A stretch of 52,259 bases of DNA. Origin: Thiemannella venezuelensis. Its GTDB lineage: Bacteria; Actinomycetota; Actinomycetes; Streptosporangiales; Streptosporangiaceae. The DNA lies in the NCBI RefSeq assembly GCF_014203605.1, contig NZ_JACHJJ010000037.1, forward strand, positions 1-52,259, in the 5' to 3' direction. Shown one piece after another: positions 229 through 27,911 of this stretch. A program made the position numbers and the translations under genes. The stretch's first letter is position 1. Each line of letters begins with the position of its first letter. The notes beneath the pieces were generated by a model, which was not told the origin of the DNA, did no database searches, and saw only the letters and a program-made list of their open reading frames with translations.

Positions 229-242
229 CGGCCCTTCGTCCC
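229..242 (-). promoter_or_regulatory. DevR-like box, distal, upstream of nitroreductase
   Basis: Read on the minus strand this is GGGAC-GAAG-GGCCG, fitting the 5-4-5 imperfect palindrome found upstream of many genes in this window. It is one of two copies ahead of the gene starting at 368. Confidence 0.5.
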
Positions 243-295
243 GCCGCGGTGTGGCCCTGGACCGCGGCAAGGAGGGCCGGAGGTCTCCGGCCGCC

Positions 296-309
296 GGGAC
301 CTTCGGCCT
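296..309 (+). promoter_or_regulatory. DevR-like box, proximal, upstream of nitroreductase
   Basis: GGGAC-CTTC-GGCCT is a close match to the GGGAC-N4-GTCCC layout of mycobacterial DevR boxes. Its centre lies about 65 bp before the GTG start at 368. Confidence 0.6.
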
Positions 310-367
310 CTGTCGCGGACGCCCGTCCCGCGGTCGGATGAAAGCCGATCCCGGGAGGTGCGGCATC

Positions 368-1306
368 GTGACAACGCATACGGCGCGTCCGGCCGGTCTG
401 AAGCGTCCGCTCGCCGGGCGGTCCGCCTGGCGGCGGCTGGACGGCCTGCAGAACCGCGTGGTCAACCCGGTGGTGCGATGGCTGCTCCGCTCCACGCTGC
501 ACGACCTGCTGAGCGGCTCGGTGCTGCTGCTGACGGTTCGGGGCCGCCGGTCCGGGCGGCAGATCACCGTTCCCGCCGGCTACGTGGAGCGAGACGGAGA
601 ACTGCTGCTGATCAGCCACCGGACGCGGCGGTGGTGGCGCAACCTGCACGACGGGGCGCCGGTCCGCGTGCTGCTACGGGGCCGGGAATGGAACGGCACC
701 GCACGCGCGTCCCTGGAGAGCGGGCGGATCCTGGACACCCTCATGGCGATGGCCGCGGACCGTCCGGCCGGAGCCGCCCGGTCGGCCTGGGCCCGGGACG
801 GGGTAGCGATCCGCATCAGCCTGCGCGCCCCGCTCCCCCGCGCCCGCGCCACCGGCCTGTGGCGGCGCTGGTTCTGCGCCGCCGCGATCGGGGGAACCGC
901 GGGCTTCGCCGTTCCCGCGGTGGTCGCCGCCCTGGTCGCCGACTCCTCCCGGCTCGGACCGCCGCCCCGGGCCGCGCTGATCGTCCTCGCCGGTCTGGGC
1001 GGAGGCGCCGCACTCGGCCTGGCCCAGGCCTGGGCTCTGCGCGCCGCCCTGCCCGCCGTACCGACCCGCGCCTGGGTACGGGCGACCGCGGCCGGCGCGG
1101 GGATCGCCTGGTCGGCCGGCGCGGTACCCGTGCTCCTCGGCGACACCGCGGCGGCCGTCGCCTGGCCGGTTCCCGCCGTCATGGGCGTGACGGCGCTGGC
1201 GTCCATGAGCCTGCTCCAGGTGGCGGTCCTGCGCGGCCGTCATCGCGGCCACCGCCACCGCGCCGGTCCGGATCCTGCGGGCAGGCCCCGGTCCCCGCTG
1301 CCGTGA
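368..1306 (+). CDS. Deazaflavin (F420)-type nitroreductase with membrane tail
   Basis: 312 aa. The first ~150 residues look like the F420-dependent (Ddn-like) split-barrel nitroreductase family: a strand ending in TVRGRRSGR, then a TVPAGYVERDGELLLIS stretch, WWRNL, and APVRVLLRG. The remainder has about four hydrophobic segments (from about residue 165 to 300), an unusual membrane extension for this family. The GTG at 368 is chosen because GGGAGGTG sits 7 nt upstream; the longer frame from 179 lacks a ribosome site and is low-complexity. Two DevR-like boxes precede it, which implies hypoxic induction, as for Ddn-family genes near DosR in mycobacteria. Substrate unknown; F420 use is inferred from family. 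Confidence 0.75.
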   Translation: MTTHTARPAGLKRPLAGRSAWRRLDGLQNRVVNPVVRWLLRSTLHDLLSGSVLLLTVRGRRSGRQITVPAGYVERDGELLLISHRTRRWWRNLHDGAPVRVLLRGREWNGTARASLESGRILDTLMAMAADRPAGAARSAWARDGVAIRISLRAPLPRARATGLWRRWFCAAAIGGTAGFAVPAVVAALVADSSRLGPPPRAALIVLAGLGGGAALGLAQAWALRAALPAVPTRAWVRATAAGAGIAWSAGAVPVLLGDTAAAVAWPVPAVMGVTALASMSLLQVAVLRGRHRGHRHRAGPDPAGRPRSPLP

Positions 1307-1391
1307 CCGGGACACGGTGCGGGCGCGAAGCGCGGCGGGCAGCCGGGAACGCCCCAGCATGGGAGCCGCGCCCCCGCTACGGCTCTACCAC

Positions 1392-1588
1392 GGCACCGGA
1401 CCCGGATCGTCTGCTCCCCGATCCAGACCCTGGCTCTGCCCCGGACCTTCGATCTGGTGCTGCTGATGTCGTTCGTCGTCGAGACCGCCGACGACGACCG
1501 CCTCGGCCGCGAACTCGGCCGGGCCGGACTGACCATCGCCGGATTCCTCGACGACGACCGCGGATGGGTGCGTGCCGTACCCCGCTGA
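1392..1588 (+). other. Possible coding relic, unrecognised
   Basis: This stretch is open in the frame of the preceding gene, right after its stop. It gives a plausible protein tail (DLVLLMSFVVETADDD, then LGRELGRAGLTIAGFLDDDR) with strong GC3 bias. No ribosome site or convincing start is visible; the first ATG is at 1466 and would give 40 aa. It is either the 3' end of a lost gene or a small protein. The rest of 1307-1702 shows nothing recognisable. Confidence 0.3.
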
Positions 1589-1702
1589 CCCACCTGCGCT
1601 CGGACGCCGGCGGGCCCGGCCCGGAACCGCCACCGGGCGTCATGTCCTCAGGCGCCGACCGCGGCCGCTCCACCGAGACGGCCCGTGCGGCCGGACGGCG
1701 GG

Positions 1703-2239
1703 TCAGCGGGGCCAGCCGTCCGGGTTCGAACACGACTCGCGCGAGATCCCCGATCCGGTGTCCGGGAAGCCCCCGTAACGCTCCTCGTACAGGTGGGCGA
1801 AGAAGTAGCACATCTCCTCGCATTCGGCGTCCGGCACCGCCTTCCGCGGATCGGCCGCCACCGCGGCGTGGAAATCGCGGCCCATCGCGACGATGAAGCC
1901 GCGCGCGTAGAGGAAGCCGTCATCGGAGCCGTCGGTGACCGCGTGGACGTCCGCGCGGTCGATGTCATGGAGCTTGCGCTCGGCCACCCGGTCGAGCGCC
2001 GTCAGCTCCTCCGCCGACAGCCCCTCGCCGAGGGAGGCGAGGTTGCCCAGGAAGTCCTCCAGAGCGGCTTCGACCAAGGAGAACGGCGGCACGCCGTGAA
2101 GCTCCTCGTCAGCGTCGGGCGTGCGATGCGCCAGCGCCCGCCGCGCCTGGCCGACGTCCGCCCCCAGGGGTGCCCACGCCGCCTCCACCAGGTCCCAGAA
2201 ACGTTGCTCGTCCCCCGCCGGGAGCTGCCGGTCCTTCAC
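1703..2239 (-). CDS. DUF4240-like protein
   Basis: 178 aa, soluble and acidic. The N-terminus (RFWDLVEAAW), central GFLYARGFIVAMG and MCYFFAHLYEERYG segments suggest the DUF4240 family, whose function is unknown. The start is a GTG preceded by an AGAGG-like site. No signal peptide or membrane segment. It is transcribed away from the arsenic genes that begin at 2382, so it probably has its own promoter within the short divergent gap. Confidence is good that it is a real gene, moderate on the family. Confidence 0.7.
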   Translation of the reverse strand: MKDRQLPAGDEQRFWDLVEAAWAPLGADVGQARRALAHRTPDADEELHGVPPFSLVEAALEDFLGNLASLGEGLSAEELTALDRVAERKLHDIDRADVHAVTDGSDDGFLYARGFIVAMGRDFHAAVAADPRKAVPDAECEEMCYFFAHLYEERYGGFPDTGSGISRESCSNPDGWPR

Positions 2240-2319
2240 CTTCGCCGCCTCTCTGACCTGTCCTGCGATCTGTGCCGATCACACAATCAGAAGGCACCGA
2301 CAATGGCCGGCAACCCATC

Positions 2320-2340
2320 GACATATGTCAATATAGATGC
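2320..2340. promoter_or_regulatory. ArsR-type operator
   Basis: A perfect GACATATGTC palindrome (2320-2329) is followed by AATATAGAT, an A+T-rich island in very GC-rich DNA just upstream of arsR. SmtB/ArsR repressors bind such imperfect ATA-rich dyads. An ATG at 2337 lies inside it and is therefore an unlikely start. Confidence 0.55.
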
Positions 2341-2381
2341 TGGACGAAGCCGTCGGAGCGCCGCCCTGGGCAGGGAGAACG

Positions 2382-3463: not shown

Positions 3464-3521
3464 CCGGCCGGACCCGTCTTCACCCGCCGCACCCGGCGGC
3501 CTGCGGAAAGGACTGCGAGAG

Positions 3522-3926: not shown

Positions 3927-3980
3927 CGCCGCCGTCCGCGGTCCTCTCACCCGGTGCGGCCCGCGGGGCGGACGCGCCGG

Positions 3981-5477: not shown

Positions 5478-5905
5478 TCATCGCTCCTCCCGGCGGGGCC
5501 GGACGACGGCGACCGGGCAGTGCGCGCGGTGCAGCACACCGTGGCCGACCGAGCCCAGCACCGCCGAGCCGTACGGGCCTCGTCCTCGAAGAGCCCCTCC
5601 AGCACCGGGCCGTAGCCCAGGATGCAAGCGGAGAACACCGGCATCTGCCAGGCGTGGATCGCCCGCAGCCGGACTCCGCGCAGCCCGGCCAGGCCGAGTC
5701 CCACCGAGCCGAGCACCAGTCCGGCGAAGCCGCCGACGCCCCTGCTGCCGACCGCGATCGTGCCGGCCCGCTCGGATTCGCTCTTCAGCGTCCCGACCAC
5801 CGTCTTCAGTGCCGCGCCGCCGCGCGCGGCGTCCTCGGCCGCCCATTCCACCGCCGCCAGCGCGGGCGCGGATCCGTCGACGCCGGCAACGATCAGTCCG
5901 GCCAT
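5478..5905 (-). pseudogene. Collapsed tandem universal stress protein
   Basis: The start is intact: GGGAGGAGG site, then MAGLIVAGVDGS and a normal first-domain opening. The ATP-loop GSRGVGGFAGLVLGSVG is reached early and then jumps directly to VRLRAIHAWQMPVF, which belongs to the start of a second USP domain. After LEGLFEDEARTA the frame slips: the true tail (VLGSVGHGVLHRAHCPVAVVRP, ending at 5478) is in another frame. A full tandem USP, such as those at 17666 and 18811, has about 290 residues; this has about 140. At least two internal deletions and one frameshift are needed. Its promoter and DevR-like box look intact. Confidence 0.8.
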
Positions 5906-5997
5906 GACCGGCCTCCTCCCAGAGGATCCCTTTACCTTCGCCTCCATCGCACACCCGCAGGAGAGTCCCGGGCACCGGCCGAACGTCACCTGCCGCA

Positions 5998-6011
5998 AGG
6001 ACCGACGTCTC
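5998..6011. promoter_or_regulatory. DevR-like box upstream of collapsed USP
   Basis: AGGAC-CGAC-GTCTC fits the recurrent 5-4-5 palindrome. It lies about 95 bp upstream of the USP pseudogene start, showing that the dead gene still carries a regulatory site of the same type as its live relatives. Confidence 0.5.
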
Positions 6012-6098
6012 CCGCGGATGCCTGCGCGAGCCCATGGCCGGCAGGCCCGCCCCGGCACCGGCCCGCCGTCCGGGTAAGGCAGGGCGACCACCCCTCCA

Positions 6099-15766: not shown

Positions 15767-17464
15767 TCACAGCGGGACGCTCCAGCACAGGCGGGTGCCG
15801 CCCTCCTCCCTCGCCGCGGCCTCGAAGGAGCCGCCCGCCTGAACGGCCCGCTCCTCGAGGTTGCGCAGGCCGCTGCGCCTGCCGTCGGGCGGCAGGCCGA
15901 CCCCGTCGTCCCGCACGACCAGCGTCAGCCGCCCGCCGGCGACCTCCACCGACACGTCGGCCTTGCTCGCCTTGGCGTGGCGCACCAGGTTGGACAGCGC
16001 CTCGCGCAGCACCGCCAGCAGGTGCTCGGTGACCGGCTCGGGCACCTGGTTGTCCAGCGGACCCTCCATCCGCAGGCCCGGCATGAAGCCCAGGTGCCCG
16101 CGGGCCCCCTCGACCAGCTCCACGATCTGCGCCCGCAGGCTGGGCGCGGCCTCATCGCCCGTCGTCTGCAGGGCGAAGATGGTCGAGCGGATCTGCCGGA
16201 TCGTCTCGTCCAGCTCGTTGATCGCGTTCTGCAGGCGCCCGGATGCCTCGGGGCGCTCCACCAGCCGCACCGTGCTCATCAACGTCATCGCCACCGCGAA
16301 CAACCGCTGGATGACCACGTCGTGCAGGTCCTTGGCGATCCGGTCGCGGTCCTCCAGCAGCCCCAGCCGCTCGGCGTCCTTACGCGTCTCGGCCAGCTCC
16401 AGCGCGATCGCGGCCTGCCCGGCGAACGCCGCCAGCATGCGCAGATCAGCCTGGCTGAACGGACTGCGTCCCGGCTTCTTGACCAGGGCCAGCACCCCGC
16501 GCACTGCCCGGGCCGCCCCCAGCGGCACCAGCAGCCCGGGACCGAACCCCGACTCGCGCAGCGGAGAGATCCGATAGGGGACGTCCTGCAGGTTGGCGTA
16601 GTTCGCCGGCTCACCACCGGTGAAGACCGCGCCCGCCGCCGATCCGTCGACCGGGAACACCGTCTCGCGCACCGCATCGGCCGCGGAACCTTCGGAGATC
16701 TCCACACGCAGCGTCTGTCCGCCGGCATCGGGCAGCAGGACCTGGGTCAGGTCGGCGTCGGTCATCTGCCGCGCCTGGCGGGCGATCAGCGTGAGCACCT
16801 CCTCGGGCCCGGCCCCCGACAGCAGGCTGGTCGTGACCTCCGACGAGGCCTGCAGCCAGGTCTCCCTGCGCCGGGTCTCCTCGTACAGCCGGGCGTTCTC
16901 GATCGCCACACCGGCCGCGGTGGCCAGCGCCACCACGATCGCCTCGTCCTCTTCGTCGAACTCCCCACCACCGCGTTTCTCGGTCAGGTACAGGTTGCCG
17001 AACACCTCCTCACGCACCCGCACCGGCACCCCCAGGAACGACCCCATCGGAGGGTGGCCGGGCGGGAACCCGTACGACTCCGGATGGTCGGAGATGCGCG
17101 CCAGCCGCAGCGTCTGCGGCTCCTTGATCAGCAGACCGAGCAGGCCCAGCCCGTGCGGCCAGTGCTCGATCGCCGCGATCTCCTCCTCGCTCAGCCCGAC
17201 GGGGACGAACTGCACCAACGTGCTCTCCTCCCCCACCACGCCCAGCGCGCCGTAGGAGGCGTCCACCAGTGTGGTCGCCGTCGCCACGATCCGCCGCAGC
17301 ACCGTCTCCAGATCCAGATCACTGCCGACCGACACGACCGCGTCCATCAGCGCGTGCACCCGGTCGCGGGTGGCCAGCACCGCCGCCAGCCTGCCCTGCA
17401 ACTCCGCCAGCAGCTCATCCAGCCGCATCCCCGGCAGCAGCGTCCGCGACTCGTTCTCCGTCAT
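15767..17464 (-). CDS. devS: DevS/DosT-like GAF-GAF sensor histidine kinase
   Basis: 565 aa. LRLDELLAELQ opens the family. GAF-A spans ~45-195 and contains GFPPGHPPMGSFLGVPVRVR: H137 aligns with H149, the haem ligand of mycobacterial DevS. GAF-B spans ~210-355. The HisKA_3 box is DRIAKDLHDVVIQRLF with H381, followed by a NarL-pathway ATPase domain (REALSNLVRHA, DDGVGLP, RSGLRNLEERA). It would sense O2, NO or CO through haem and phosphorylate a DevR-type regulator, plausibly the one at 1-51. No strong ribosome site precedes the ATG, and a 13-bp-stem hairpin lies 27-62 nt upstream. The haem claim rests on one aligned histidine plus overall similarity. Confidence 0.9.
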   Translation of the reverse strand: MTENESRTLLPGMRLDELLAELQGRLAAVLATRDRVHALMDAVVSVGSDLDLETVLRRIVATATTLVDASYGALGVVGEESTLVQFVPVGLSEEEIAAIEHWPHGLGLLGLLIKEPQTLRLARISDHPESYGFPPGHPPMGSFLGVPVRVREEVFGNLYLTEKRGGGEFDEEDEAIVVALATAAGVAIENARLYEETRRRETWLQASSEVTTSLLSGAGPEEVLTLIARQARQMTDADLTQVLLPDAGGQTLRVEISEGSAADAVRETVFPVDGSAAGAVFTGGEPANYANLQDVPYRISPLRESGFGPGLLVPLGAARAVRGVLALVKKPGRSPFSQADLRMLAAFAGQAAIALELAETRKDAERLGLLEDRDRIAKDLHDVVIQRLFAVAMTLMSTVRLVERPEASGRLQNAINELDETIRQIRSTIFALQTTGDEAAPSLRAQIVELVEGARGHLGFMPGLRMEGPLDNQVPEPVTEHLLAVLREALSNLVRHAKASKADVSVEVAGGRLTLVVRDDGVGLPPDGRRSGLRNLEERAVQAGGSFEAAAREEGGTRLCWSVPL

Positions 17465-17665: not shown

Positions 17666-18529
17666 TCATCGTGGCGGGACGACGACCAGCGGGCAGACCG
17701 CGTGGTGCAGCAGCGAGTGGCTGACCGACCCGAGCAGCAGACCGGTCAGGTCGCCGCGCCCGCGCGAGCCCACGACCAGCAGGCCCGCCCGGGCAGCGGC
17801 GTCCTTGAGCACGTCCACCGGGTGGCCGTTGACCGCCTGCGCGGTGACCTTGACGTCCGGATAGCGCTCACCCCAACCGGCCAGCGCCTCGGCCAGCACC
17901 CGCTGCTCGTCGCCTTCCTGCCGTGCGGCGCTCTCCAGCAGGTGCGGCGCCCCCTCGATCACGGGCCCGCTCCAGGCGTGCACCGCCCGCAGCCCGACCC
18001 CGCGCGCCGAGGCCTCGGCGAAGGCGAGGGCGAGCGCGTCGGCTCCCACCGGCGAGCCGTCGACCCCGACCACCACCGGGCCCTCCGGCACAGACCGCTC
18101 CTGCCCGGCGGGCGCGGCACGGACCACGGCCACCGGGCAGGCGGTGTGCCCGCACACGCCCAGCGCCACCGAACCCGCCAGCATGCCCAGGAAGCCGCCC
18201 AGCCCGTGGCTGCCGACCACCAGCAGCTCCGCCTCTCCGGTGACCTCGATCAGGCCCCGCCTCGGATCGCCCGGCAGCAGCAGCGACTCCACCTCCACCG
18301 GCAGTCCCTCGGCTCGGGCCCGCTCCACCCCTTCGGCCAGCATGCCGGCGGCGCCGTCGCGCATCCACCGCCCCACATCGGCGTGCGGCACGTCCTCGGG
18401 CATCTCGAACGCCCAGGCCGGCATGACGTGCACGACGCGAAGCCGCGCACCGCGCAGTCCGGCCTCCCGCACCGCCCAGCCCACCGCCTCCAGAGCGGCG
18501 TGCGAGCCGTCGACCCCCACAACGATCAT
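17666..18529 (-). CDS. Tandem universal stress protein
   Basis: 287 aa with two USP domains. Domain 1 (1-145) starts IVVGVDGSHAA and carries the ATP loop GSHGLGGFLGMLAGS. Domain 2 (~150-287) starts VVVGVDGSPVGA and carries GSRGRGDLTGLLLGS. Both G2XG9G(S/T)-type loops suggest ATP binding. The ATG at 18529 follows AGAGGAC; the longer frame upstream belongs to a permease relic. Such proteins (Rv2623 type) are typical DosR-regulon members linked to slowed growth in hypoxia. No convincing DevR-like box lies directly upstream, possibly because the relic disrupted the promoter region. Confidence 0.88.
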   Translation of the reverse strand: MIVVGVDGSHAALEAVGWAVREAGLRGARLRVVHVMPAWAFEMPEDVPHADVGRWMRDGAAGMLAEGVERARAEGLPVEVESLLLPGDPRRGLIEVTGEAELLVVGSHGLGGFLGMLAGSVALGVCGHTACPVAVVRAAPAGQERSVPEGPVVVGVDGSPVGADALALAFAEASARGVGLRAVHAWSGPVIEGAPHLLESAARQEGDEQRVLAEALAGWGERYPDVKVTAQAVNGHPVDVLKDAAARAGLLVVGSRGRGDLTGLLLGSVSHSLLHHAVCPLVVVPPR

Positions 18530-18535
18530 GATGTC

Positions 18536-18800: not shown

Positions 18801-18812
18801 GCCGAGGACGTC
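18779..18812. terminator. Perfect 14-bp hairpin after USP gene
   Basis: GACGTCCTCGGCCG and CGGCCGAGGACGTC flank a 6-nt loop (GCACGG). It overlaps the last bases of the USP gene at 18811-19671 and is well placed to end its transcript. One arm is part of the permease relic, so the hairpin may have formed by chance duplication. Confidence 0.5.
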
Positions 18813-19671
18813 AGGCGCGCGGTGAGCGGACCACGGCCACGGCGCTGCGGGCGTGGTGCAGGACGCCCCGGCTGACCGAGCCGAGGGCCAGCGACCCGAG
18901 GGCTCCCCGGCCGTGGGAGCCCACAACGAGCAGGTCCGCCCCCTCCGAGGCCGCGCTCAGCGCTTCGACCGGGTGCGCGGACCGGACGTCCTCGACCACC
19001 TTCACCTGCGGATACGTCTCCCGCCACGATGCGAGTTTGCCGGTCGCGACCTGGTGCTGGGCCTGCCGGACCTCGTCCATGTCGTAGACGATCTCCGGAG
19101 CGTAGGCGTGCACCGGCGCCTGCCAGGCATGGACCGCCCGCAGCGTGGCACCGCGGAGCGCGGCCTGCTCGAAGGCGTAGGCGAGGGCCGGATCGCACTC
19201 GGGCGAGTCGTCGACGCCGACGACGACCTCCCCGCGGACGGTCCGCGGGCCGGGGTGGACGACGACCACGGGCCCGCGGGCGTGCCCGGCCACGTGCATG
19301 CTCACCGAGCCGAGCACGGCACCGGCGAATCCGCCCAGGCCCCTGCTGCCGATCACGATCTCGGCGGCGTCGGCGGCCTGATCGCGCAGGACAACGGCAG
19401 GCGCCCCCTCGGCCATCCGGGTGGTGACCTCGATCTCCGGCTGCCGCTTGCGGGCGAGGGCTCCGGCCTCCGCCAGGACCTGTTCCGCGTTGCGGGTCAG
19501 GGCGTCGCCCCACTGGCGGGTGGAGAACTTCGGGATGTCGTACGGCGAGCGGTCCAGGGCGAAGACGACACGCAGCGAGGTGTGCATGCGCGCCGCGTCA
19601 TCGGCGGCCCACTCCACGGCGGCCGAGCCGGCGGCCGAACCGTCGGTACCCACGACGACAGGGTCGGACAT
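18811..19671 (-). CDS. Tandem universal stress protein
   Basis: 286 aa with two USP domains. Domain 1 starts VVVGTDGSAAGSAAVEWA and has the loop GSRGLGGFAGAVLGS; domain 2 starts VVVGVDDSPECD and has GSHGRGALGSLALGS. LRAVHAWQAPVH in domain 2 is shared with the collapsed gene at 5478, so the two are close relatives. AGGAG precedes the ATG. The leader carries a long inverted repeat containing two DevR-like boxes (19737-19772). Expected role: ATP-binding stress/dormancy protein. Confidence 0.9.
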   Translation of the reverse strand: MSDPVVVGTDGSAAGSAAVEWAADDAARMHTSLRVVFALDRSPYDIPKFSTRQWGDALTRNAEQVLAEAGALARKRQPEIEVTTRMAEGAPAVVLRDQAADAAEIVIGSRGLGGFAGAVLGSVSMHVAGHARGPVVVVHPGPRTVRGEVVVGVDDSPECDPALAYAFEQAALRGATLRAVHAWQAPVHAYAPEIVYDMDEVRQAQHQVATGKLASWRETYPQVKVVEDVRSAHPVEALSAASEGADLLVVGSHGRGALGSLALGSVSRGVLHHARSAVAVVRSPRA

Positions 19672-19736
19672 GGCTTTTCTCCTTTACTCTTCCGTGAGCT
19701 CTTTCTCATCCCAGCTCTGCGGCGTCGCACCGGCCA

Positions 19737-19772
19737 GGGCCGATGGGCCCACGACCGCGGGCCCATCGGCCG
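19737..19772. promoter_or_regulatory. Inverted repeat with two DevR-like boxes
   Basis: GGGCC-GATG-GGCCC (19737-19750) and GGGCC-CATC-GGCCG (19759-19772) are each DevR-box-like and are inverted copies of one another, forming 13-bp arms around an 8-nt centre. The block lies about 65-100 bp upstream of the USP start at 19671. It could bind two regulator dimers side by side or form a hairpin in the leader. Confidence 0.5.
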
Positions 19773-19878
19773 TAGCCGCCCGCCCAGGCGGATGGACGAC
19801 CGGTGAGGTCACCGCGTCGGCGCTCGGCAGGATCGCTGCCCGGACTCTCTGCCGACCGGAGCGGCACCGGGCCGGTCG

Positions 19879-20406
19879 CTACGCGATCCGGTGGACGCCG
19901 GCCTGGCATGCCGCGGCCAGCGACACGCCCCAGAGGCGGGCCCGCTCACCCTCCCCGTCCAGCAGGGGTCCCGGCGTGTCGGAGACGTAGAAGCTCTGCG
20001 ATCCGGTCAGGATCGCGAAGCCGCGCCTGTGCAGGAGTTTCTCGGCGCCCCGCCGGGCCGAGCCGGGGATCCAGCGGTTGTCGATCCGGGTGTCGAACGC
20101 CGCGGCGGCCACGTCCTGAGCCCCGCCGGTCAGAGTGGTGAGCCACTCGCGCAGTCCGCCCCCTCTGGACACCAGGCCGCGGGGAGCCTGCTGGGCGGCT
20201 GACTGCCGGGTGGCGGGCCGGCTCATGCCGAAAGCGTGGGTGGGCCCGCCGACGACGAGCAGATCCACGCCTTCGGGGACGGCCTTCGGGGCCTCACCGA
20301 CCTCGACGAGGTCCACGTCCATGCGGGTGGACAGGCCCTCGGCGATCGCCTCGGCGATCGTCTGAGTGTTACCGAACATCGACTCGAATACGACGAGCGC
20401 GCGCAT
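19879..20406 (-). CDS. Flavodoxin-domain protein
   Basis: 175 aa. ALVVFESMFGNTQTIAEAIA is the FMN phosphate-binding loop of flavodoxins, and LLVVGGPTHAFGMSRP matches the 50s isoalloxazine loop. TGSQSFYVSDTPGPL near the C-terminus is typical of the short flavodoxin-like proteins found with USP genes in actinobacteria. AGGAG lies 9 nt before the ATG. A DevR-like box lies 130 bp upstream. Likely a cytoplasmic FMN redox protein; partner unknown. Confidence 0.87.
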   Translation of the reverse strand: MRALVVFESMFGNTQTIAEAIAEGLSTRMDVDLVEVGEAPKAVPEGVDLLVVGGPTHAFGMSRPATRQSAAQQAPRGLVSRGGGLREWLTTLTGGAQDVAAAAFDTRIDNRWIPGSARRGAEKLLHRRGFAILTGSQSFYVSDTPGPLLDGEGERARLWGVSLAAACQAGVHRIA

Positions 20407-20535
20407 GGGAGTTCATCTCCTTTGCCTGCACCCTTCCAGAGGGTGGATCCCGAGGGCCGGTCCGGCCTCCTGCCGTTCACCTCCAGCGTTTCGCCCACCG
20501 CTCCGCGCGTGAAGGGGCCGACGGTCCCCGCTGGG

Positions 20536-20549
20536 GGGACCAAAGGCCC
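20536..20549 (+). promoter_or_regulatory. DevR-like box upstream of flavodoxin gene
   Basis: GGGAC-CAAA-GGCCC is a near-ideal member of the repeated palindrome. It is immediately preceded by GGTCCCCGCTGGGGGGACC (20523-20541), a second dyad, so the region may hold two overlapping sites. Confidence 0.6.
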
Positions 20550-20602
20550 GCCGGCCGAGTACGGCGGGCGGAGCCGATGATCTGCGGTGCCGGCCGGGGC
20601 CG

Positions 20603-23149
20603 TCATGCACGGGCCTGCTCCTCGCGGGGACGGCCCAGGCGCAGCAGGTCGCACAGGAACGGGGTGGCCAGGCCCGCAGCCAGCGCCATGGCCCAGCCGA
20701 GCGGCGGCAGCGCCGTCAGCGCGAGCAGCGCGCCGAGCGCGGGCACCAGCGTCACCAGCACCTGCAGCACCAGGGTGGCGGCGACCGCGGTCAGTACGGC
20801 GCGCCCGCGCCACCAGCCGTGCTCGAACGTCCAGCGGCGGGCGCGGGTGACGTAGGCCAGGGTGAGCCGGGCGAAGACGAGGGCCAGGACGGCCTGGGCG
20901 CGGACCTGCTCGTCGCTCCAGCCCAGGCCGCGCGCGACCTCGACGGCGGCGAAGACGAGTGCGCCGATGAGCAGCGCCCGCGCCGCGATGCGGGTGACGG
21001 TCTGCCGGGAGAGCAGGCCGCCCCGGCGGGGGCGCAGGGCGAGCGGGTCGCCGGCGGGCCGGTCGACGCCCAGGGCGATGGCGGGGATGCCGTCCAGGAC
21101 CAGGTTGATCCAGAGCAGGTGGACCGGGAGCAGCGGGATGACGAGCTCGGGCCAGAGCAGCAGGCCGGCCAGGACGAGGAAGATTTCGGCGAGGTTCCCG
21201 GTGAGCAGGTAGCCGATCATCGAGGCGACGTTGTGGTGGAGTCGGCGGCCTTCGCGGATCCCGGTGACGATGGTGCCCAGCTCGCCGTTGGTGACGACGA
21301 CGGCGGCGGCCTCGCGGGCCACGTCGGTGCCTTCGTCGCCGGCCATGGCGACGCCGACGTCGGCATGGCGCAGCGCGGGGGCGTCGTTGACGCCGTCGCC
21401 GGTCATGGTGACGATCTCGCCGTGCTCGCGCAGGGCGCGCACCAGGTCGAGTTTGGTGGCCGGGTCGACGCGGGCCAGCACCCCGGCCTCGCGCAGCAGC
21501 GCACGGCGGGCGGCGCCGTCCGCGCCATCCGTGCCCGCGCCATCCGTGCCCGCGCCGTCCAGGGACGCGCCGGTGACGACCGGGTCGGGCTCGATGCCGA
21601 CGTCGGCGGCGACGGCGCGGGCGGTGTCGGCGTGGTCGCCGGTGACCATCACGACGCGGATGCCCGCGGCGCGGCAGTCGGCCACGGCCTGGCGGGCCGA
21701 GGGGCGGATCTCGTCGCTGAGGGCGACCAGCCCGGCCGGGGCCAGCCCGGTGGCGTCGAGGTCGTCGGTCTCGGCGGTGGCCAGGGCGAGGACCCGCAGG
21801 CCGCGGCCGGCCAGTCCGGATACGGCGACCGCCAGCCGGTCTATCTCCGGGCCGGGCGCGCAGCGGTCCAGGACCACCTCGGGTGCGCCCTTGACGGTCA
21901 ACAGCGGTCCGCCGCCGGTGGCGGTGATCACGGTCATGGAGCGGGTCTCGGCGTCGAAGGGGCGCTCGGCCAGGCGCTTCTCACCGGGCGGCAACCGTAC
22001 CCCGCGGGCGGTCGCGGCGGCCTGCAGGGCGACGTCGACGGCGTCGCCGAGACCGTCGCGGGCGTCGTTGCAGCGCAGCGCGGCCCGCCACAGACCGGTG
22101 CCGTCGGCGGTGGGAGCGGTCACCTGATCGGCGGCAGTGGAAACGGTCACCTGATCGGTGACGGTGAGGCGTCCGGTGGTCAGCGTGCCGGTCTTGTCGG
22201 TGGCGATGACGGTGGTCGCGCCGAGCGCCTCGATCGCCGAGAGCCTGCGGACGATCACGCCGAGCTTGGCCATGCGCTGCGAGCCGAGGGCCATGGCGGT
22301 GGTCACCGCCGCGGCCAGGCTCTCGGGGACGGCGGCGATGGCCAGGGCGACCCCGGCCAGGATGATGTCCAGCAGCGCGGCCTGGCCCTGGCTGACCCGG
22401 GTCAGGCCGATCAGCACCATCACGGTGCCCGCGGCCAGGGCCAGGACACCGATGCGCCGGGAGGCCTGGGCCAGGTCCCGCTCCAGAGGACCCTTTCCGC
22501 CGCCCTCCAGCGCGGCGGCGATGCGGCCCATCTCGGTGTCCGCGCCGGTCCGCATCACCAGCGCGGTCGCCGAGCCGCGCACGATGAGCGTTCCGGAGAA
22601 CAGCTCCCCCTTGCGGTCGCCGAGCGGCGTGCCGTCCGCGGCGGGCCCGGAGGGGTGCTTGTTCGCCGACAGGGACTCCCCGGTGAGCATGGACTCGTCG
22701 GCGGCCAGCGCGCCGGCGGCCAGGACGCGGGCGTCGGCGGGCACGCGGTCCCCGGCGGCGACCTCGACGACGTCTCCGGGCACGACCTCGGCGGCGGGGA
22801 TACGCCGCAGCACCCCGTCGCGCCGGACCTTGGCCATCGGCGCGGTGAGCGTGCGCAGCGCGCGGACCGCCTGGTCGGCCTTGCTCTCCTGGGTGACTCC
22901 GATGACGACGTTGACCACCAGGATGGCGACGATGGCCACGCCCTCGGGGATCTCGCGCAGCACGAGCAGAGTAATCAGGCCGGCAATGAGCAGCAGGACC
23001 GAGAGCGGGTCGGCGAGCTGGCGGGCCGCGCGGGCGGCCATCGTCGGCGGCTCGGGCTGCGGCAGCGCGTTGGGCCCATGCTCGGTCAGCAGCCGTGTCG
23101 CGGCCTCCTGCGAGAGCCCGTGCGAAACCTTCACCTCGACGTCTTCCAT
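20603..23149 (-). CDS. Cation-transporting P-type ATPase (calcium-type, CtpF-like)
   Basis: 848 aa. Motifs in order: N-terminal cation ATPase domain; actuator loop MLTGES (near 154-159); TM4 AIAAVPESLAA; phosphorylation site D318 in ATDKTGTLT; hinge TGDGVNDAPAL; and C-terminal helices containing NLAEIFLVLAGLL and LLWINLVLDGIPAIALG, which match the ion-binding helices of P2-type (SERCA-like) pumps. Exports Ca2+ or a similar divalent cation. Mycobacterial CtpF belongs to the DosR regulon, and here two DevR-like boxes lie 58-98 bp upstream. The ribosome site is weak. It is at the usual length for bacterial P2 pumps (about 850-900). Confidence 0.9.
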   Translation of the reverse strand: MEDVEVKVSHGLSQEAATRLLTEHGPNALPQPEPPTMAARAARQLADPLSVLLLIAGLITLLVLREIPEGVAIVAILVVNVVIGVTQESKADQAVRALRTLTAPMAKVRRDGVLRRIPAAEVVPGDVVEVAAGDRVPADARVLAAGALAADESMLTGESLSANKHPSGPAADGTPLGDRKGELFSGTLIVRGSATALVMRTGADTEMGRIAAALEGGGKGPLERDLAQASRRIGVLALAAGTVMVLIGLTRVSQGQAALLDIILAGVALAIAAVPESLAAAVTTAMALGSQRMAKLGVIVRRLSAIEALGATTVIATDKTGTLTTGRLTVTDQVTVSTAADQVTAPTADGTGLWRAALRCNDARDGLGDAVDVALQAAATARGVRLPPGEKRLAERPFDAETRSMTVITATGGGPLLTVKGAPEVVLDRCAPGPEIDRLAVAVSGLAGRGLRVLALATAETDDLDATGLAPAGLVALSDEIRPSARQAVADCRAAGIRVVMVTGDHADTARAVAADVGIEPDPVVTGASLDGAGTDGAGTDGADGAARRALLREAGVLARVDPATKLDLVRALREHGEIVTMTGDGVNDAPALRHADVGVAMAGDEGTDVAREAAAVVVTNGELGTIVTGIREGRRLHHNVASMIGYLLTGNLAEIFLVLAGLLLWPELVIPLLPVHLLWINLVLDGIPAIALGVDRPAGDPLALRPRRGGLLSRQTVTRIAARALLIGALVFAAVEVARGLGWSDEQVRAQAVLALVFARLTLAYVTRARRWTFEHGWWRGRAVLTAVAATLVLQVLVTLVPALGALLALTALPPLGWAMALAAGLATPFLCDLLRLGRPREEQARA

Positions 23150-23206
23150 GGATTCAGTAGATCACCGGAGGTGCCGCGGGGCCCGGACCGAACGGCACCT
23201 CCTCGA

Positions 23207-23220
23207 AGGACCTTCGGCCC
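23207..23220 (+). promoter_or_regulatory. DevR-like box upstream of P-type ATPase
   Basis: AGGAC-CTTC-GGCCC, 58 bp before the ATPase start at 23149. It fits the shared 5-4-5 pattern. Confidence 0.6.
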
Positions 23221-23233
23221 CGGTCGGACGCAC

Positions 23234-23283: not shown

Positions 23284-25599
23284 CTACTGCGTCCAGGTCC
23301 AGTTGCGGATCTCGGCGGGGTCCTCGCCGTACTCGCGGGTGTGGGCACGGGCGTGCAGGCGGGTGTCGGACATCTGCTGGCGCAGGTGCGCGGCGGTGGT
23401 GCCCAGGCCGGGGACCCGGTCGATGACGTCGATGACCAGGTGGTAGCGGTCGATGTCGTTGAGCATGGCCATGTCGAAGGGCGTGGTGGTGGTGCCCTCC
23501 TCCTTGTAGCCGCGGACATGGATGTTGTGGTGGCCGGCGCGGCGGTAGGTGAGGCGGTGGATCAGCCACGGGTAGCCGTGGAAGTTGAAGATGACCGGCT
23601 TGTCGGGGGTGAACAGGGCGTTGAACTCGGCGTCGGGCATGCCGTGCGGGTGCTCCGACGGCGGCTGCAGGCGCATCAGGTCCACGACGTTGATGACGCG
23701 GACCTTCAGCTCGGGCAGGTGCTCGCGCAGCAGCGCGGCGGCGGCGAGGGTCTCCAGGGTGGGCACGTCGCCGGCGCAGGCCAGCACGACGTCGGGTTCG
23801 GCTCCGGCGTCGTTGGAGGCCCAGTCGATGATGCCCAGGCCGCGGGTGCAGTGCACGACGGCCTCGTCCATGGTGAACAGGTCCAGGACGGGTTGCTTGC
23901 CGGCGACCACGACGTTGACGTAGTCGCGGGAGCGCAGGCAGTGGTCGCCGACCGACAGCAGGGTGTTGGCGTCCGGTGGCAGGTAGACGCGCACCACGTC
24001 GGCTTTCTTGTTGACCACGACGTCCAGGAAGCCGGGGTCCTGGTGGCTGAAGCCGTTGTGGTCCTGGCGCCAGACGTGGGAGGACAGCAGGTAGTTGAGT
24101 GAGGCGACCGGACGGCGCCAGGGGATGTCGCGGCAGGCGTCGAGCCATTTGGCGTGCTGGTTGAACATGGCGTCGACGATGTGGATGAAGGCCTCGTAGC
24201 AGTTGAACAGGCCGTGGCGGCCGGTGAGCAGGTAGCCTTCCAGCCAGCCCTGGCACAGGTGCTCGGAGAGCACTTCCATGACGCGTCCGCCGGGGGCCAG
24301 GTCGGTGTCGCCGGGCAGGAGTTCGGCGTTCCAGGCGCGGCCGGTGGCCTCGAAGACCGCGCCGAGCCGGTTGGAGGCGGTCTCGTCGGGCCCCATCAGG
24401 CGGAAGGTCTGAGGGTTGGCGGCCATGATGTCGCGCAGGAAGGTGCCCAGCACGCGGGTCGGTTCGGTCAGCTGGGCGGCGGGGGCTTTGACCTCCACGG
24501 CGTAGGTGCGGAAGTCGGGGATGGCCAGCGGGCGCAGGATCTCTCCGCCGTTGGTGTGCGGGCTGGCGCTCATCCGGCGGGGTCCGGCCGGTACCAGCTG
24601 CAGGATCTCGGGTGTCGGGCGGCCGTCGGTGTCGAAGAGTTCTTCGGGCCGGTAGGAGCGCATCCACTGCTCCAGCGTCGCGCGGTGGGCGGCGTCGTCG
24701 CGGACGGCGGCCAGGGGGACCTGGTGGGAGCGCCAGGTGCCTTCGACGCGGACGCCGTCGACCTCGCGGGGGCCGGTCCAGCCCTTGGGAGACCGCAGAA
24801 TGATCATGGGGAGGCGGTCGGCGTGGCCGTTCTTGAACTCGGCGATCTGGTCGAAGACGGTGTTCAGGGTGTCTTGCATGAGCTGGTGCATGGTGGCGGG
24901 GTCGTCGCCGGCCACGATGTGCGGGCGGTAGCCGTACCCTTCCATGAGTTTGACCAGCTCGGTTTCGGGGATGCGGGCCAGCACCGTCGGATTGGCGATC
25001 TTGTAGCCGTTCAGGTGCAGGATGGGCAGGACGGTGCCGTCGCGGTAGGGGTCGAGGAACTTGTTGGAGTGCCAGCTGGCGGCCAGCGGTCCGGTCTCGG
25101 CCTCGCCGTCGCCGATGATGCAGGCGACCACCAGGTTCGGGTTGTCGAAGGCGGCACCGTAGGCGTGGGCCAGGGCGTAGCCGAGTTCGCCGCCTTCGTG
25201 GATGGAGCCGGGGGTCTCGGGGGCGACGTGGCTGGGTACGCCGCCGGGGAAGGAGAACTGGCGGAACAGCCGGCGCATGCCGTCGGCGTTCTGCGGGATG
25301 TCGGGGTAGCGGTCGGTGTAGGAGCCTTCCAGCCAGGCGTGGGCGACCGCGGCGGGGCCGCCGTGGCCGGGCCCGGCGATGTAGATCATCTCTTGGTCGC
25401 GTTCCAGGATGACCTGGTTGAGGTGGGCGAAGCAGAAGTTCAGGCCGGGGGTGGTGCCCCAGTGCCCCAGCAGGCGGGGCTTGACGTGCTCGGCGGCCAG
25501 GGGTTCGTTCAGCAGCGGGTTGTCCAGCAGGTAGATCTGCCCCACCGACAGGTAGTTGGCGGCGCGCCAGTAGGCGTCGATCCTCTGAAGTTTCTCCAT
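23284..25599 (-). CDS. xfp: Phosphoketolase (xylulose-5-P/fructose-6-P)
   Basis: 771 aa, near full family length (about 790-800). It begins with [20 protein letters not shown] and contains [19 protein letters not shown], the TPP/Mg site [31 protein letters not shown], and the C-terminal [19 protein letters not shown] and [17 protein letters not shown]. It splits xylulose-5-P or fructose-6-P with phosphate to acetyl-P plus a triose or tetrose phosphate, allowing ATP from acetyl-P without oxygen. The ATG follows the family N-terminus; a GTG 9 nt upstream (25608) is possible. A DevR-like box lies 37 bp upstream, tying the enzyme to the hypoxia island. Confidence 0.95.
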
Positions 25600-25635
25600 G
25601 GGACTCACGGTGCCCGCATTTTCCTTGATCACATA

Positions 25636-25649
25636 GGGGATTTGGTCCC
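25636..25649 (-). promoter_or_regulatory. DevR-like box upstream of phosphoketolase
   Basis: On the minus strand this is GGGAC-CAAA-TCCCC. Its centre is about 43 bp before the proposed ATG, the classical class II activator position if the mRNA is leaderless. The remainder of 25650-25897 shows nothing recognisable. Confidence 0.6.
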
Positions 25650-25897
25650 TGCTCGACAAGACTCCGGAAAGCCCGATAGCCGACAAAGAATGTTTTCCTG
25701 GGCTGCGACGCGCCAGACCGGCGACCGGCTCCTGCCGGATGCCGGCCGGCCGGCGGAGAAGGGGCTTCAGCGGTTCTTCCGGCGGACGGTTCCCACGGAC
25801 CTGCCGGCTGTCACCTCGACCGCCGGAAGGCACTCGATCTGGTGGATGTGCATCGTCCCGGCCTTTTCGTTTTCCCGGACTTCGCCCTTCATGGCGA

Positions 25898-25929
25898 ACG
25901 CCCGTCCCCTTCGGTCAGGGGACGGGCGT
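25898..25929. terminator. Hairpin downstream of DoxX-like gene
   Basis: ACGCCCGTCCCC and GGGGACGGGCGT form a perfect 12-bp stem with an 8-nt loop, starting 11 bp past the stop of the minus-strand gene at 25941. No T-run follows, as usual in high-GC actinobacteria. Confidence 0.65.
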
Positions 25930-25940
25930 CGTGCGGGCGG

Positions 25941-26528
25941 TCACTTCAGCACGGGGAGTCGCTTGACCAGGGCGGTCCTGCCCCACCAGGCGCCGATGCC
26001 CAGGGTGTCACCGGCGTGGGCCAGGGCCAGGCCGGCCAGGACGATGGCGTAGACGATGTGGTCGTCCATGAACGGGTTGGTGTCCAGGGGTAGCTGGGCC
26101 GCCCACATCAGCAGCATCATGGCCGCGCCCGCGCCGGCCGCGATGCGCATGCCCGCGCCCAGCAGGAGGGCGGTGCCGACGCCGAGCAGGCCGAGCATGA
26201 ACAGCCAGTCGACCCAGGCCTGTCCGGCCAGGCCGCCGAAGAGGCCGCCGAGGGCGTTCTCGCCGGTTCCCTTGAGGAAGCCGGTGGTCGGGCTGCCGCC
26301 GTTGGTCCACGCCTTGGCGGCGGGGGTGGCGAAGCCGAGGCCGAAGGTCTTGTCGGCGAAGGCCCACAGGAACACCCAGCCCAGCGCGATCCGGGCGGCG
26401 GCCCAGGCGTAGGCGGCGGGGGCGCGGGTGGCGGCTGCGGCGGCGCGGGTGCCGGCGGGGGCGGTCGCGGTGGGAGCGGTGGCGGTGTGGCCGTCGAGCG
26501 GCCGGGGGCGCCTTGCGATGGTGGCCAT
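25941..26528 (-). CDS. DoxX-like membrane protein
   Basis: 195 aa. After an Ala/Thr-rich N-terminal tail of ~40 residues come four hydrophobic helices (AARIALGWVFLWAFADKTFGLGF, WVDWLFMLGLLGVGTALLLGAG, AGAGAAMMLLMWAAQLPL, HIVYAIVLAGLALAHAGDTLG), the DoxX/TQO small-subunit layout. Members include subunits of thiosulphate:quinone oxidoreductase and redox-linked membrane proteins. AAGGAG lies 6 nt before the ATG, which fixes the start. A DevR-like box is ~115 bp upstream. Exact reaction unknown. Confidence 0.82.
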   Translation of the reverse strand: MATIARRPRPLDGHTATAPTATAPAGTRAAAAATRAPAAYAWAAARIALGWVFLWAFADKTFGLGFATPAAKAWTNGGSPTTGFLKGTGENALGGLFGGLAGQAWVDWLFMLGLLGVGTALLLGAGMRIAAGAGAAMMLLMWAAQLPLDTNPFMDDHIVYAIVLAGLALAHAGDTLGIGAWWGRTALVKRLPVLK

Positions 26529-26640
26529 GATCGGCTCCTTGTGGATTCCTCTTCGTGATGACACCCAGTACATCGGCTGGAGTGGGGTTTTCCGCAGTGC
26601 CGTACGACTCGCCTCTGCGCTGCCATCGTCCTGAACCGGC

Positions 26641-26654
26641 GGGTCTTTGGTCCT
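26641..26654 (-). promoter_or_regulatory. DevR-like box between DoxX-like gene and regulator relic
   Basis: On the minus strand this is AGGAC-CAAA-GACCC, about 115 bp upstream of the DoxX-like gene. It lies 85-98 bp before the relic regulator on the other strand and could serve both. Confidence 0.6.
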
Positions 26655-26673
26655 TCGCCTCCGTGTTTGATGG

Positions 26674-26687
26674 TTTTTCGCGAAAAA
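26674..26687. promoter_or_regulatory. TTTTTCGCGAAAAA palindrome
   Basis: A perfect 14-bp palindrome, about 55 bp upstream of the regulator relic. The equivalent element is at 109-120 ahead of the intact regulator start, and the flanks up to the ATG also align. It is a strong operator or DNA-bending candidate. Confidence 0.5.
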
Positions 26688-26739
26688 TGATGTCTAAAGG
26701 CCGGGGTCCGGTCGGCCGCGGTGAAGAGCGCTGAGGGGT

Positions 26740-26931
26740 ATGGGTGTGATCCGGGTGGTCCTGGTGGACGACCACGGGGTGGTGCGGCGCGGGGTGGCGG
26801 CGCTGCTGGAGCGGCAGATCCTGGAGTTGATCGGTGAGGGGCTGACCAACCGGCAGATCGGTGAGCGGATGTTCCCGGCCACCCGGCTGAAGGCCGAACG
26901 CGGTGAACGGGGAGACCTTCGTCCCTGGTGA
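26740..26931 (+). pseudogene. Internally deleted DevR-type response regulator
   Basis: The first 17 residues equal those of the regulator at 1-51 with one change (E to G after VDDH). After RRGVAALL the sequence jumps to ERQILELIGEGLTNRQIGERMF, the LuxR-type recognition helix region of the C-terminal domain, then degenerates and stops. About 130 residues of receiver and linker are gone and the reading frame happens to stay open for 63 codons. The promoter region is retained. It could still make a small HTH-bearing peptide, but it lacks the phosphorylated aspartate and most of the DNA-binding helix bundle, so I call it a pseudogene. Confidence 0.8.
26912..26925 (+). promoter_or_regulatory. DevR-like box upstream of PNPOx protein
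   Basis: GAGAC-CTTC-GTCCC, inside the 3' end of the relic regulator. Its centre is 43 bp before ATG 26962, again the class II spacing if transcription starts at the ATG. Confidence 0.6.
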
Positions 26932-26961
26932 GGTGGAGTGTCCGAGGCCGATGCTGGAGGT

Positions 26962-27393
26962 ATGAAAGTCGACTCCACGGGCCTGCGGGTGCTCTCACGG
27001 GCCGAGTGCCTGGAACTGCTCGCCTCGGCGCCGATCGGGCGGATCGTCTTCACCGACCGTGCGCTCCCGGCCGTCCAGCCGGTCAACTACATGCTGGACG
27101 GCGAACGGCTGGTGGTCCGCGCCAGGGCCGGGTCCAAGCTGGCGCTCGCGGTGCGCGACGCGGTCGTGGCGCTGGAGGCCGACGCGTTCGACCCGGCCGG
27201 CCGGACGGGATGGTCGGTGACCGTGGTCGGGCACGCGCACGCCGTACCGCAGGGCCGCGAGTCCAGCCGCCTGGCCCACCTGCCGCTGGCGCCCTGGACG
27301 CCCCGGGACGGGCAACGGCCGGACGGCCGGGACCACTACATCGTGCTCCCGGTGGAGCAGATCTCCGGCCGCCGGGTCGAAACCCACCCCTGA
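26962..27393 (+). CDS. PNPOx-family flavin-binding protein
   Basis: 143 aa single-domain split barrel: LSRAECLELLASAPIGRIVFTD, ALPAVQPVNYMLDGERLVVRAR, WSVTVVGHAHAVP and C-terminal YIVLPVEQISGRRVE. This actinobacterial PNPOx-like family often accompanies DosR/DevR-type genes and USPs. ATG 26962 is chosen on N-terminal similarity to the family and on box spacing; GGAGG is only one base away, and a GTG at 26938 is in frame, so the start is uncertain. Probable FMN- or F420-binding reductase of unknown substrate. Confidence 0.82.
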   Translation: MKVDSTGLRVLSRAECLELLASAPIGRIVFTDRALPAVQPVNYMLDGERLVVRARAGSKLALAVRDAVVALEADAFDPAGRTGWSVTVVGHAHAVPQGRESSRLAHLPLAPWTPRDGQRPDGRDHYIVLPVEQISGRRVETHP

Positions 27394-27451
27394 CCGGACC
27401 GGAGCCCCGCGGCGTCTGCGAGGCCGAAGCCGCCCCGCTGACCTCGCAGAC

Positions 27452-27898
27452 GTGACCACCTGCAAAGCCGTCAAGGTCTCGGGCCTGCTCCCGTCCGAAC
27501 GCGCCGCGATCTTCGGCATCGGCGGCCTGGGCCACCTGGCCCAGCAGTACGCACAGATCTTCGGCGCCGAGACCGTCGCCGTCGACATCACCGCCGACAA
27601 GCTCCGCCTGGCCGAGGAACTCGGCGCCACCCACACCGTCGACGCCGCCACCGACGACCCGGTCACCGCGATCCAGGCGCTGGGCGGGGCCGACGTGGCG
27701 ATCGTGCCGGCCGCCAGCCCGCGCGTGCTGGAGCAGGCCCACGCCTGCCTGCGGCGCGGCGGCCGCCTGGTCCTGGTCTCCCTGCCCAAGGACAACGCGA
27801 TGAACCTGCCGATCTTCGAAACCGTCCTGGGCGGCATCAGCGTGATCGGCTCCATCGTCGGCACCACCATTGCCGCAAAGCGGTGCAGGAAGCCGTAG
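27452..27898 (+). pseudogene. Zinc-type alcohol dehydrogenase fragment
   Basis: The frame gives the nucleotide-binding half of a medium-chain zinc alcohol dehydrogenase: FGIGGLGHLAQQYAQIFGAE (Rossmann GXGXXG), VDITADKLRLAEELGATHTV, LGGADVAIVPAAS, LRRGGRLVLVSLP and PIFETVLGGISVIGSIVGT. The ~150-residue N-terminal catalytic domain with zinc ligands is missing, and the C-terminus breaks after IVGT. The upstream bases still resemble the normal CAGVTTYKA linkage but with a frameshift. An intact enzyme would have about 340 residues. Confidence 0.8.
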
Positions 27899-27911
27899 GG
27901 ACCAAGGACCC
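27898..27911 (+). promoter_or_regulatory. DevR-like box upstream of CBS-BON gene
   Basis: GGGAC-CAAG-GACCC, one of the best matches in the window, about 112 bp before the CBS-BON start. Confidence 0.65.

Follow-up and report, generated by a model that had tools for sequence, protein, structure and literature searches.

Organization of the locus

The window examined here is the whole of contig NZ_JACHJJ010000037.1 (C37; 52,259 nucleotides) of Thiemannella venezuelensis, whose genome of 8.18 Mb is assembled in 85 contigs. It carries genes for a phosphoketolase (Xfp, gene xfp), universal stress proteins (USPs), a DevS-like sensor kinase, a flavodoxin-like protein, a P2-type cation ATPase, a DoxX-like membrane protein, a pyridoxamine 5'-phosphate oxidase-like protein (PNPOx) and a protein with CBS and BON domains (CBS-BON), many of them preceded by a palindrome that resembles GGGAC-N4-GTCCC (Table 1). 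The sequence evidence points to the window being part of a DevR/OsdR-type hypoxia-dormancy island, with a probability of about 0.83. A DevR/DosR-type regulon had been proposed in an initial annotation of this DNA, and the proposal is supported by DevS and DevR homology, by the devR gene ends found in the assembly and by boxes upstream of orthologues in other genomes.

The palindrome in the window and in the genome

Ten sites had been assigned to the pattern RGGAC-N4-GNCCC. A palindrome-like 14-mer lies at all ten coordinates, but the written pattern fits only 20536, 23207 and 26641 (minus strand) and 27898; the sites at 229, 296, 5998, 23234, 25636 and 26912 deviate from it. Because the pattern as written is no commoner than chance in the window and six of its ten sites depart from it, two matrices were used: W1, built from 26 published OsdR sites of Streptomyces coelicolor (PMC5069765, its Table 1), and W2, for which 27 xfp loci in other genomes supplied 23 distinct promoter sites, with the window excluded.

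The signal is separable from noise only by placement and by density relative to other sequence of the same genome. Noncoding DNA makes up 17.6% of the window (according to a list of coding sequences made for this analysis). With W1, 5/5, 6/8 and 10/12 of the top 5, 8 and 12 matches are noncoding, a placement equalled by 0, 1 and 0 of 1000 column-permuted matrices; with W2 the figures are 5/5, 8/8 and 9/12, equalled by 2, 0 and 1 of 1000. The five best W1 matches, all noncoding, lie between 19.7 and 23.2 kb, and they include the strongest member of the GGGCC variant pair that had been noted at 19737/19759; W1 recovers both members (15.5 at 19736 and 11.5 at 19758). W2 ranks 1 to 8 fall at 27897, 25635, 26911, 26640, 23206, 20535, 5997 and 295, which are eight of the ten sites first listed; the sites at 229 (5.9) and 23234 (6.8) score low.

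Five W2 sites scoring at least 13 lie in the window, against two in 746 kb of other sequence of the genome (Poisson P 4e-7; P 1.4e-5 with the xfp site omitted). Contig C34 has another five in 40 kb, a density that is not a blind figure because C34 was picked for its devR end and motif matches; the background parts C33, C40, C44 and C17 were likewise picked for earlier matches. Genome-wide, RGGGACNWWNGTCCCY with at most one mismatch occurs 18 times against 4 for its reversed control, and GGGACCWWNGGNCC without mismatch 12 times against 3 for the control (both strands summed).

Conservation of the box upstream of phosphoketolase genes

A scan of named genomes placed Xfp of the window nearest to those of Acrocarpospora, Streptosporangium, Microtetraspora and Nonomuraea (84-82% identity). 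An xfp match was found in 109 of 120 genomes of the family, and 80 xfp neighbourhoods were analysed, 45 of them close (at least 79% identity) and 35 more distant. GGGAC-N4-GTCCC with at most one mismatch is present within 150 bp upstream of 18 of the 45 close genes; two control palindromes gave 0/45 and 0/45, and 0.57 would be expected from random stretches of these loci. The distant genes gave 2 at this stringency (controls 0 and 1; random 0.2) and 14 with at most two mismatches (controls 6 and 9; random 4.5). The inclusion of xfp and the DoxX-like gene among the members, as originally suggested, is supported by these boxes and by those of DoxX homologues described below.

The box (at most one mismatch) also tends to accompany DevR or DevS in the same locus: both are present in 11 of the 80 loci, the box alone in 9, DevR/DevS alone in 6 and neither in 54 (Fisher P 9e-5; P 0.005 for the 45 close loci; shared ancestry ignored). 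The association is weaker at the level of whole genomes, where 50 xfp loci of at least 76% identity comprise 30 with box and DevR orthologue, 2 with the box only, 12 with DevR only and 6 with neither (P 0.019, shared ancestry again ignored).

The idea that the xfp box arose only once, in one clade, was considered but is not supported: a quick tree of 51 rows requires 9-10 changes of the box label. Eight of these 51 rows (L135, L138, L144, L159, L162, L167, L173 and L175) are boxless xfp genes of the same clade that carry GTTTGAA followed by a GAGGAACTGTC-like element upstream, perhaps the promoter of another sigma factor to which these genes were re-wired. At two other loci (L057:9998-14324 and L024:9977-13463), a Lentzea xfp is followed by an open reading frame (ORF) with an acetate-kinase-like start (kinase named by eye) and a USP gene, and an Actinomadura xfp by a similar ORF.

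Promoter layout

The position of the box is nearly constant at three genes. The 54 xfp loci tested yielded 31 distinct rows in which a W2 site (score at least 5) precedes the aligned start by 20-60 bp, and the box ends exactly 35 bp before the start in 24 of the 31 and at 32-36 bp in 29. All 15 PNPOx loci gave a row, with the box at 34-36 bp in 14, none of which shares the xfp-proximal box. Upstream of devR, a box was found in 8 distinct rows of 12 loci tested, always 34-36 bp from the start; in six of these eight, devR and the divergent xfp have one box in common, which makes these rows dependent on the xfp rows. In one relative (L016) a single palindrome lies between devR and xfp.

Between box and start, a NANNNT hexamer ending at -7/-8 is present in 26/28 xfp, 14/14 PNPOx and 8/8 devR rows with the box 33-37 bp away, against 0-4 at other offsets. 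The first T of a TANNNT-type -10 element is often absent. Excerpts of PMC3898074 place the TANNNT elements of Mycobacterium tuberculosis 7-12 bp before start sites. From the box spacing and the hexamer, we infer that the xfp, PNPOx and devR mRNAs may be leaderless, with DevR centred near -43.

The regulators DevS and DevR

The kinase of the window is, by homology, a DosS/DosT-like haem-GAF kinase. Its best PDB matches are GAF-A chains of M. tuberculosis DevS (2y8h, 4ynr, 2y79 and 2w3d), and its own GAF-A domain keeps the FPPxHPPM motif, the histidine of which we take to be the haem-binding residue. Alignment to these structures and retention of HPPM agree with the haem-type DevS homologue of the initial annotation.

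DevR orthologues were found in 106 of the 120 relatives' genomes at E-values of 1e-60 or lower. DevR of relative L016 aligns with M. tuberculosis DevR (3c3w) over 211 residues (E-value: 3e-80), and the segment AEKTVKNYVS is identical in the two. In T. venezuelensis, the first devR bases at 1-51 of the window also open contig C40 (C40:1-114). C34 and C17 each finish, on the right, in a matching devR 3' end, recognized by eye as coding for the DevR C-terminus. The pattern suggests that two almost identical devR copies were broken in the assembly, with one deletion remnant (26740-26883) besides.

The two devR 5' regions of the window have TTTTTCGCGAAA in common upstream, at 109-120 (minus strand) and 26674-26687 (plus strand). 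A TTTTTCGCGAAAAA palindrome is complete at the latter; the C40 devR copy is without it. C40 further contains part of a DoxX gene (99% identical; C40:884-1324) and an xfp fragment near position 2365.

The wider island and further candidate targets

A relative of the same genus (G058) carries DoxX, a CBS gene, xfp, pflAB, flavodoxin, USP2, DevS, NarK, narGHJI, PNPOx genes, devR and a second DevS-like kinase on one contig, in about 36 kb with 12 W2 sites scoring at least 12; no P-type ATPase was found in that island. In T. venezuelensis, contig C34 likely adjoins the window. Its right end holds genes for a NarK-like transporter (below cut-off), a PNPOx-like protein (named by similarity, without an NCBIfam match), an oxidoreductase (a weak FabK match only), a cupredoxin protein (copper nitrite reductase match below cut-off), NarGHJI, PflA and PflB, followed by the devR end. 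NarG of C34 was confirmed in a separate check; the NarG row of the orthologue box survey stands for position only.

The names given earlier to the genes downstream of the boxes are right, with the reservations that the nitroreductase match is partial, the DoxX match lies below cut-off and the USP gene at 5478-5905 appears broken.

Table 1. Features of the window. W1 and W2 are matrix scores; ranks refer to W2; gaps are in bp.
Feature	Coordinates	Strand	Remarks
devR 5' end (MGVIRVVLVDDHEVVRR...)	1..51	-	Truncated at contig edge; 90% DNA match to the 26740 copy; same bases open C40
Box CGGGACCTTCGGCCTC	295..310	+	57 bp before nitroreductase-like ORF; W2 9.4 (rank 8), W1 9.15
ORF, F420H2/deazaflavin-dependent nitroreductase-type domain, partial	368..1306	+	PF04075 E-value 1.9e-7; TIGR00026 below cut-off
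USP, apparently broken	5478..5905	-	PF00582 in two stretches, E-value 3.6e-8
Box before broken USP	5997..6012	-	Gap 91; W2 11.0, rank 7
DevS/DosS-like sensor kinase	15767..17464	-	Pfam: GAF domains, HisKA_3, HATPase_c
USP1, tandem USP	17666..18532	-	PF00582 E-value 1.3e-52 (longer ORF)
USP2, tandem USP	18811..19671	-	PF00582 E-value 1.7e-52
Two OsdR-like GGGCC sites before USP2	19736-19751, 19758-19773	-	The first is the window's best W1 match
Flavodoxin-like protein	19879..20406	-	PF00258 E-value 1.5e-7
Sites before flavodoxin	20453..20550	-	20453, 20514 (W1); 20535 (W2 12.0, gap 128)
P2-type cation ATPase	20603..23149	-	PF00122, PF00689, PF00690; TIGR01522/TIGR01116 below cut-off
Box before ATPase	23206..23221	-	Gap 56; W2 13.1, W1 12.5
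Phosphoketolase Xfp	23284..25599	-	PF09364/PF03894/PF09363; NF003619 1415 bits
Candidate xfp -10 hexamer CACCGT	25607..25612	-	22 bp after box
DevR box AGGGACCAAATCCCCT (predicted)	25635..25650	-	35 bp before xfp start; W2 17.5, rank 2; same position in relatives
DoxX-like membrane protein	25941..26531	-	PF07681 E-value 0.0037, below Pfam cut-off
Box AAGGACCAAAGACCCG before DoxX	26640..26655	-	Gap 108; W2 15.8
devR remnant, receiver start fused to part of helix-turn-helix	26740..26883	+	G058: intact devR at the matching place, adjoining PNPOx
DevR box GGAGACCTTCGTCCCT (predicted)	26911..26926	+	35 bp before PNPOx; W2 17.3; identical in G058
Candidate PNPOx -10 hexamer GATGCT	26950..26955	+	
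PNPOx	26962..27393	+	PF12900 E-value 5.9e-28
Zinc alcohol dehydrogenase remnant, ADH_zinc_N part only	27452..27898	+	PF00107
Box AGGGACCAAGGACCCC before CBS-BON	27897..27912	+	Gap 104; W2 18.0, window's best
CBS-BON protein	28017..28718	+	PF00571 (two stretches), PF04972

Sites before several other genes recur in relatives. The flavodoxin site at 20535 is matched at 127 bp in G058 and, weakly, at 134 bp in G015. For the ATPase a single orthologue row (L136) was tested, and its box stands at 81 bp. For DoxX, W2 sites of at least 9.5 lie within 260 bp in 13/15 rows (the window and one duplicate row counted), at variable distance. For pflB, W2 sites of at least 11 lie within 400 bp in 13/17 loci, and in 10 of these the distance to the start is 83-97 bp, in a set that is without a control; a full or near-full PflB was found in 17 of 120 genomes and any match in 20. 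The hemerythrin gene, on C9 in T. venezuelensis, lies inside the island in G058, and among its nine best homologues (at least 37% identity) a W2 score of at least 12 is reached within 100 bp upstream in seven, with 11.7 in one more.

The sdhC gene (b558 type) of T. venezuelensis has the box CGGGACCAAAGTCCCT (L211:1501-1516, C5:221796) between TTGGAC and TAGCGT. A similar TTGGAC/TAGCGT pair is retained, but with no box, in at least four relatives, which suggests that the site may represent recruited repression. As a general target sdhC was rejected: W2 sites of at least 13 are found only in its own genome and in 4/20 relatives (G058, G044, G015 and G037, the last with the site elsewhere in the promoter), so the site is lineage-specific. 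The one acetate kinase gene (PF00871) found in the genome, at C6, was likewise rejected as a regulon member, as no site scoring at least 8 with either matrix occurs in its 4.1-kb locus.

Alternatives and proposed model

A number of observations weigh against a DevR-type regulon, or against its proposed promoter layout. The exact pattern first proposed occurs 5 times in the window against 4.88 expected from shuffles, and neither W1 nor W2 gives more matches there than column-permuted matrices; GGGAC-N4-GTCCC with at most two mismatches is likewise at or below chance in the window (61 against 95 expected from shuffles). The looser form GGGACCWWNGNCCC with at most one mismatch is not enriched genome-wide (116/113 against 144/137 for the control). 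With at most two mismatches, the control palindromes also score upstream of the close xfp genes (7 and 7, against 27/45 for the box and 4.4 for random stretches). Twelve of the 42 xfp genes in DevR-bearing genomes are without the box, and two boxed xfp genes lie in genomes where the DevR search found none, although in one of these (L165) the short contig that holds xfp also holds what resembles a devR start. No intact devR is present in the assembled T. venezuelensis genome, only ends and a remnant, and no box precedes devR of G058 or of L157. The USP2 sites have no counterpart above threshold in G058 or in 6/7 other homologues. Among 11 site-gene pairs tested in the window, NANNNT stands at class II distance for xfp and PNPOx only, and the GGGAA upstream of xfp might serve as a Shine-Dalgarno sequence.

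The last point belongs to the alternative that survives best, which accepts the regulon but gives short leaders to the transcripts of xfp, PNPOx and devR, with GGGAA as the Shine-Dalgarno element and a box that acts in another geometry. We consider this unlikely, though far from negligible: upstream of xfp there is strong conservation of G at -16 to -14 and of A at -13/-12, which is a Shine-Dalgarno position, but the hexamer at -7/-8 is found in every one of the PNPOx (14/14) and devR (8/8) rows, which as a group have no common GGGAA. It appears quite improbable that some other NarL-family regulator of T. venezuelensis, and not the DevR orthologue, recognizes the boxes. Candidates are plentiful, with 116 places in the genome matching DevR at E-values of 0.001 or lower, and 9/20 boxed xfp loci (at most one mismatch) are without DevR/DevS in the stretch analysed; against this stand the boxed devR promoters of relatives (8 distinct rows, 6 in common with the divergent xfp), the co-occurrence of the box with DevR and a recognition segment identical to that of M. 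tuberculosis DevR. Chance GC-rich inverted repeats or transcription terminators without regulatory role are a very improbable source of the palindromes, for although the literal motif count, the matrix match numbers and the loose genome pattern are all unenriched, the top matches of both matrices are noncoding, the spacing to the xfp and PNPOx start codons is near-constant and the control palindromes gave 0/45.

The hypoxia-dormancy island, which is the reading preferred here, may operate as follows. Judging from its homologues, the haem-GAF kinase DevS would sense low oxygen (or nitric oxide or carbon monoxide) and phosphorylate DevR. DevR dimers would then bind GGGAC-N4-GTCCC-like palindromes, as the protein match and the conserved sites indicate. 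At xfp and PNPOx (and at devR in relatives) the box stands at a fixed distance, with its centre predicted near -43 of an apparently leaderless transcript; given the presumed start site, this is where an activator contacting RNA polymerase is expected, and activation is the presumed outcome. In several relatives devR and xfp diverge from a shared box, which would serve both genes. DevR would switch on phosphoketolase, the USPs, flavodoxin, the P-type ATPase and the CBS-BON protein, as well as pyruvate formate-lyase and nitrate respiration, encoded on the contig that probably adjoins. Acetyl phosphate from Xfp could yield ATP through the acetate kinase at C6, and fermentation in hypoxia may be the result.

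A fuller version of this model is more tentative, and we put it at slightly less than even odds. In Streptosporangiaceae-like actinomycetes, the core DevR promoters, those of xfp, PNPOx and devR, would all be of the same rigid, leaderless class II type: the start codon would be +1, the box would be centred near -43, and divergent devR and xfp would in some cases be driven from a single box. Their mRNAs would have no need of a Shine-Dalgarno element. Oxygen sensing would thereby be coupled to fermentation through Xfp and pyruvate formate-lyase beside nitrate respiration; in T. venezuelensis and its nearest relatives, the regulator would also have acquired a site in the sdhC promoter, between its -35-like and -10 elements, and would repress the gene from there.

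Comparison with known systems

To our knowledge, DevR/OsdR regulons have mostly been studied in mycobacteria and Streptomyces, and the energy supply in dormancy is unclear there. If the present reading is true, DevR boxes on phosphoketolase and pyruvate formate-lyase genes would suggest that dormancy energy comes from acetyl-phosphate/acetyl-CoA fermentation beside nitrate respiration. The rigid box-to-start spacing would be a promoter rule usable for finding core targets in other actinobacteria.

In M. tuberculosis the DevR box has the form GGGAC-N4-GTCCC, and USPs, Hrp1 and CtpF are DosR targets. The T. venezuelensis island resembles this system in its DevR and DevS homologues and in its GGGAC-N4-GTCCC-like box; xfp, pfl and DoxX-like genes appear as members here. 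A locus of Mycobacterium massiliense contains USP, phosphoketolase, DevR and sensor kinase genes, and its authors suggest a role in hypoxic survival (excerpts of PMC4263727). It is similar to the present island in having xfp beside devR, a sensor kinase and USPs, but the gene order differs and those excerpts do not mention a DevR box on xfp. A passage on Xfp in the Rhodococcus (R. equi) literature draws no link to DosR.

The OsdR/OsdK system of S. coelicolor and Streptomyces lividans shares with the island a palindromic site and a set of targets. Sections of PMC5069765 give USP, nitroreductase, PNPOx, zinc dehydrogenase, nar, hemerythrin and osdR itself as predicted OsdR targets or co-transcribed genes in S. 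coelicolor, where the osdR region holds a zinc alcohol dehydrogenase gene; in S. lividans, a putative pfl gene and a fragment of a pfl-activase go up together with osdR (sections of PMC6302529). The two systems differ in the site, for which the OsdR consensus is AGGGCCGATCGGCCCT, whereas most xfp, PNPOx and devR boxes here have GGGAC-N4-GTCCC. The word phosphoketolase is absent from the main text of PMC5069765 and PMC6302529, the same sections describe no fixed 35-bp layout for OsdR, and no report of a DevR box on xfp or of a fixed layout was found in excerpts of the literature on xfp and pfl in the DosR/DevR context. Control of USP, PNPOx, nitroreductase and nar genes by OsdR is already published; the conserved phosphoketolase box and its fixed layout appear to be new.

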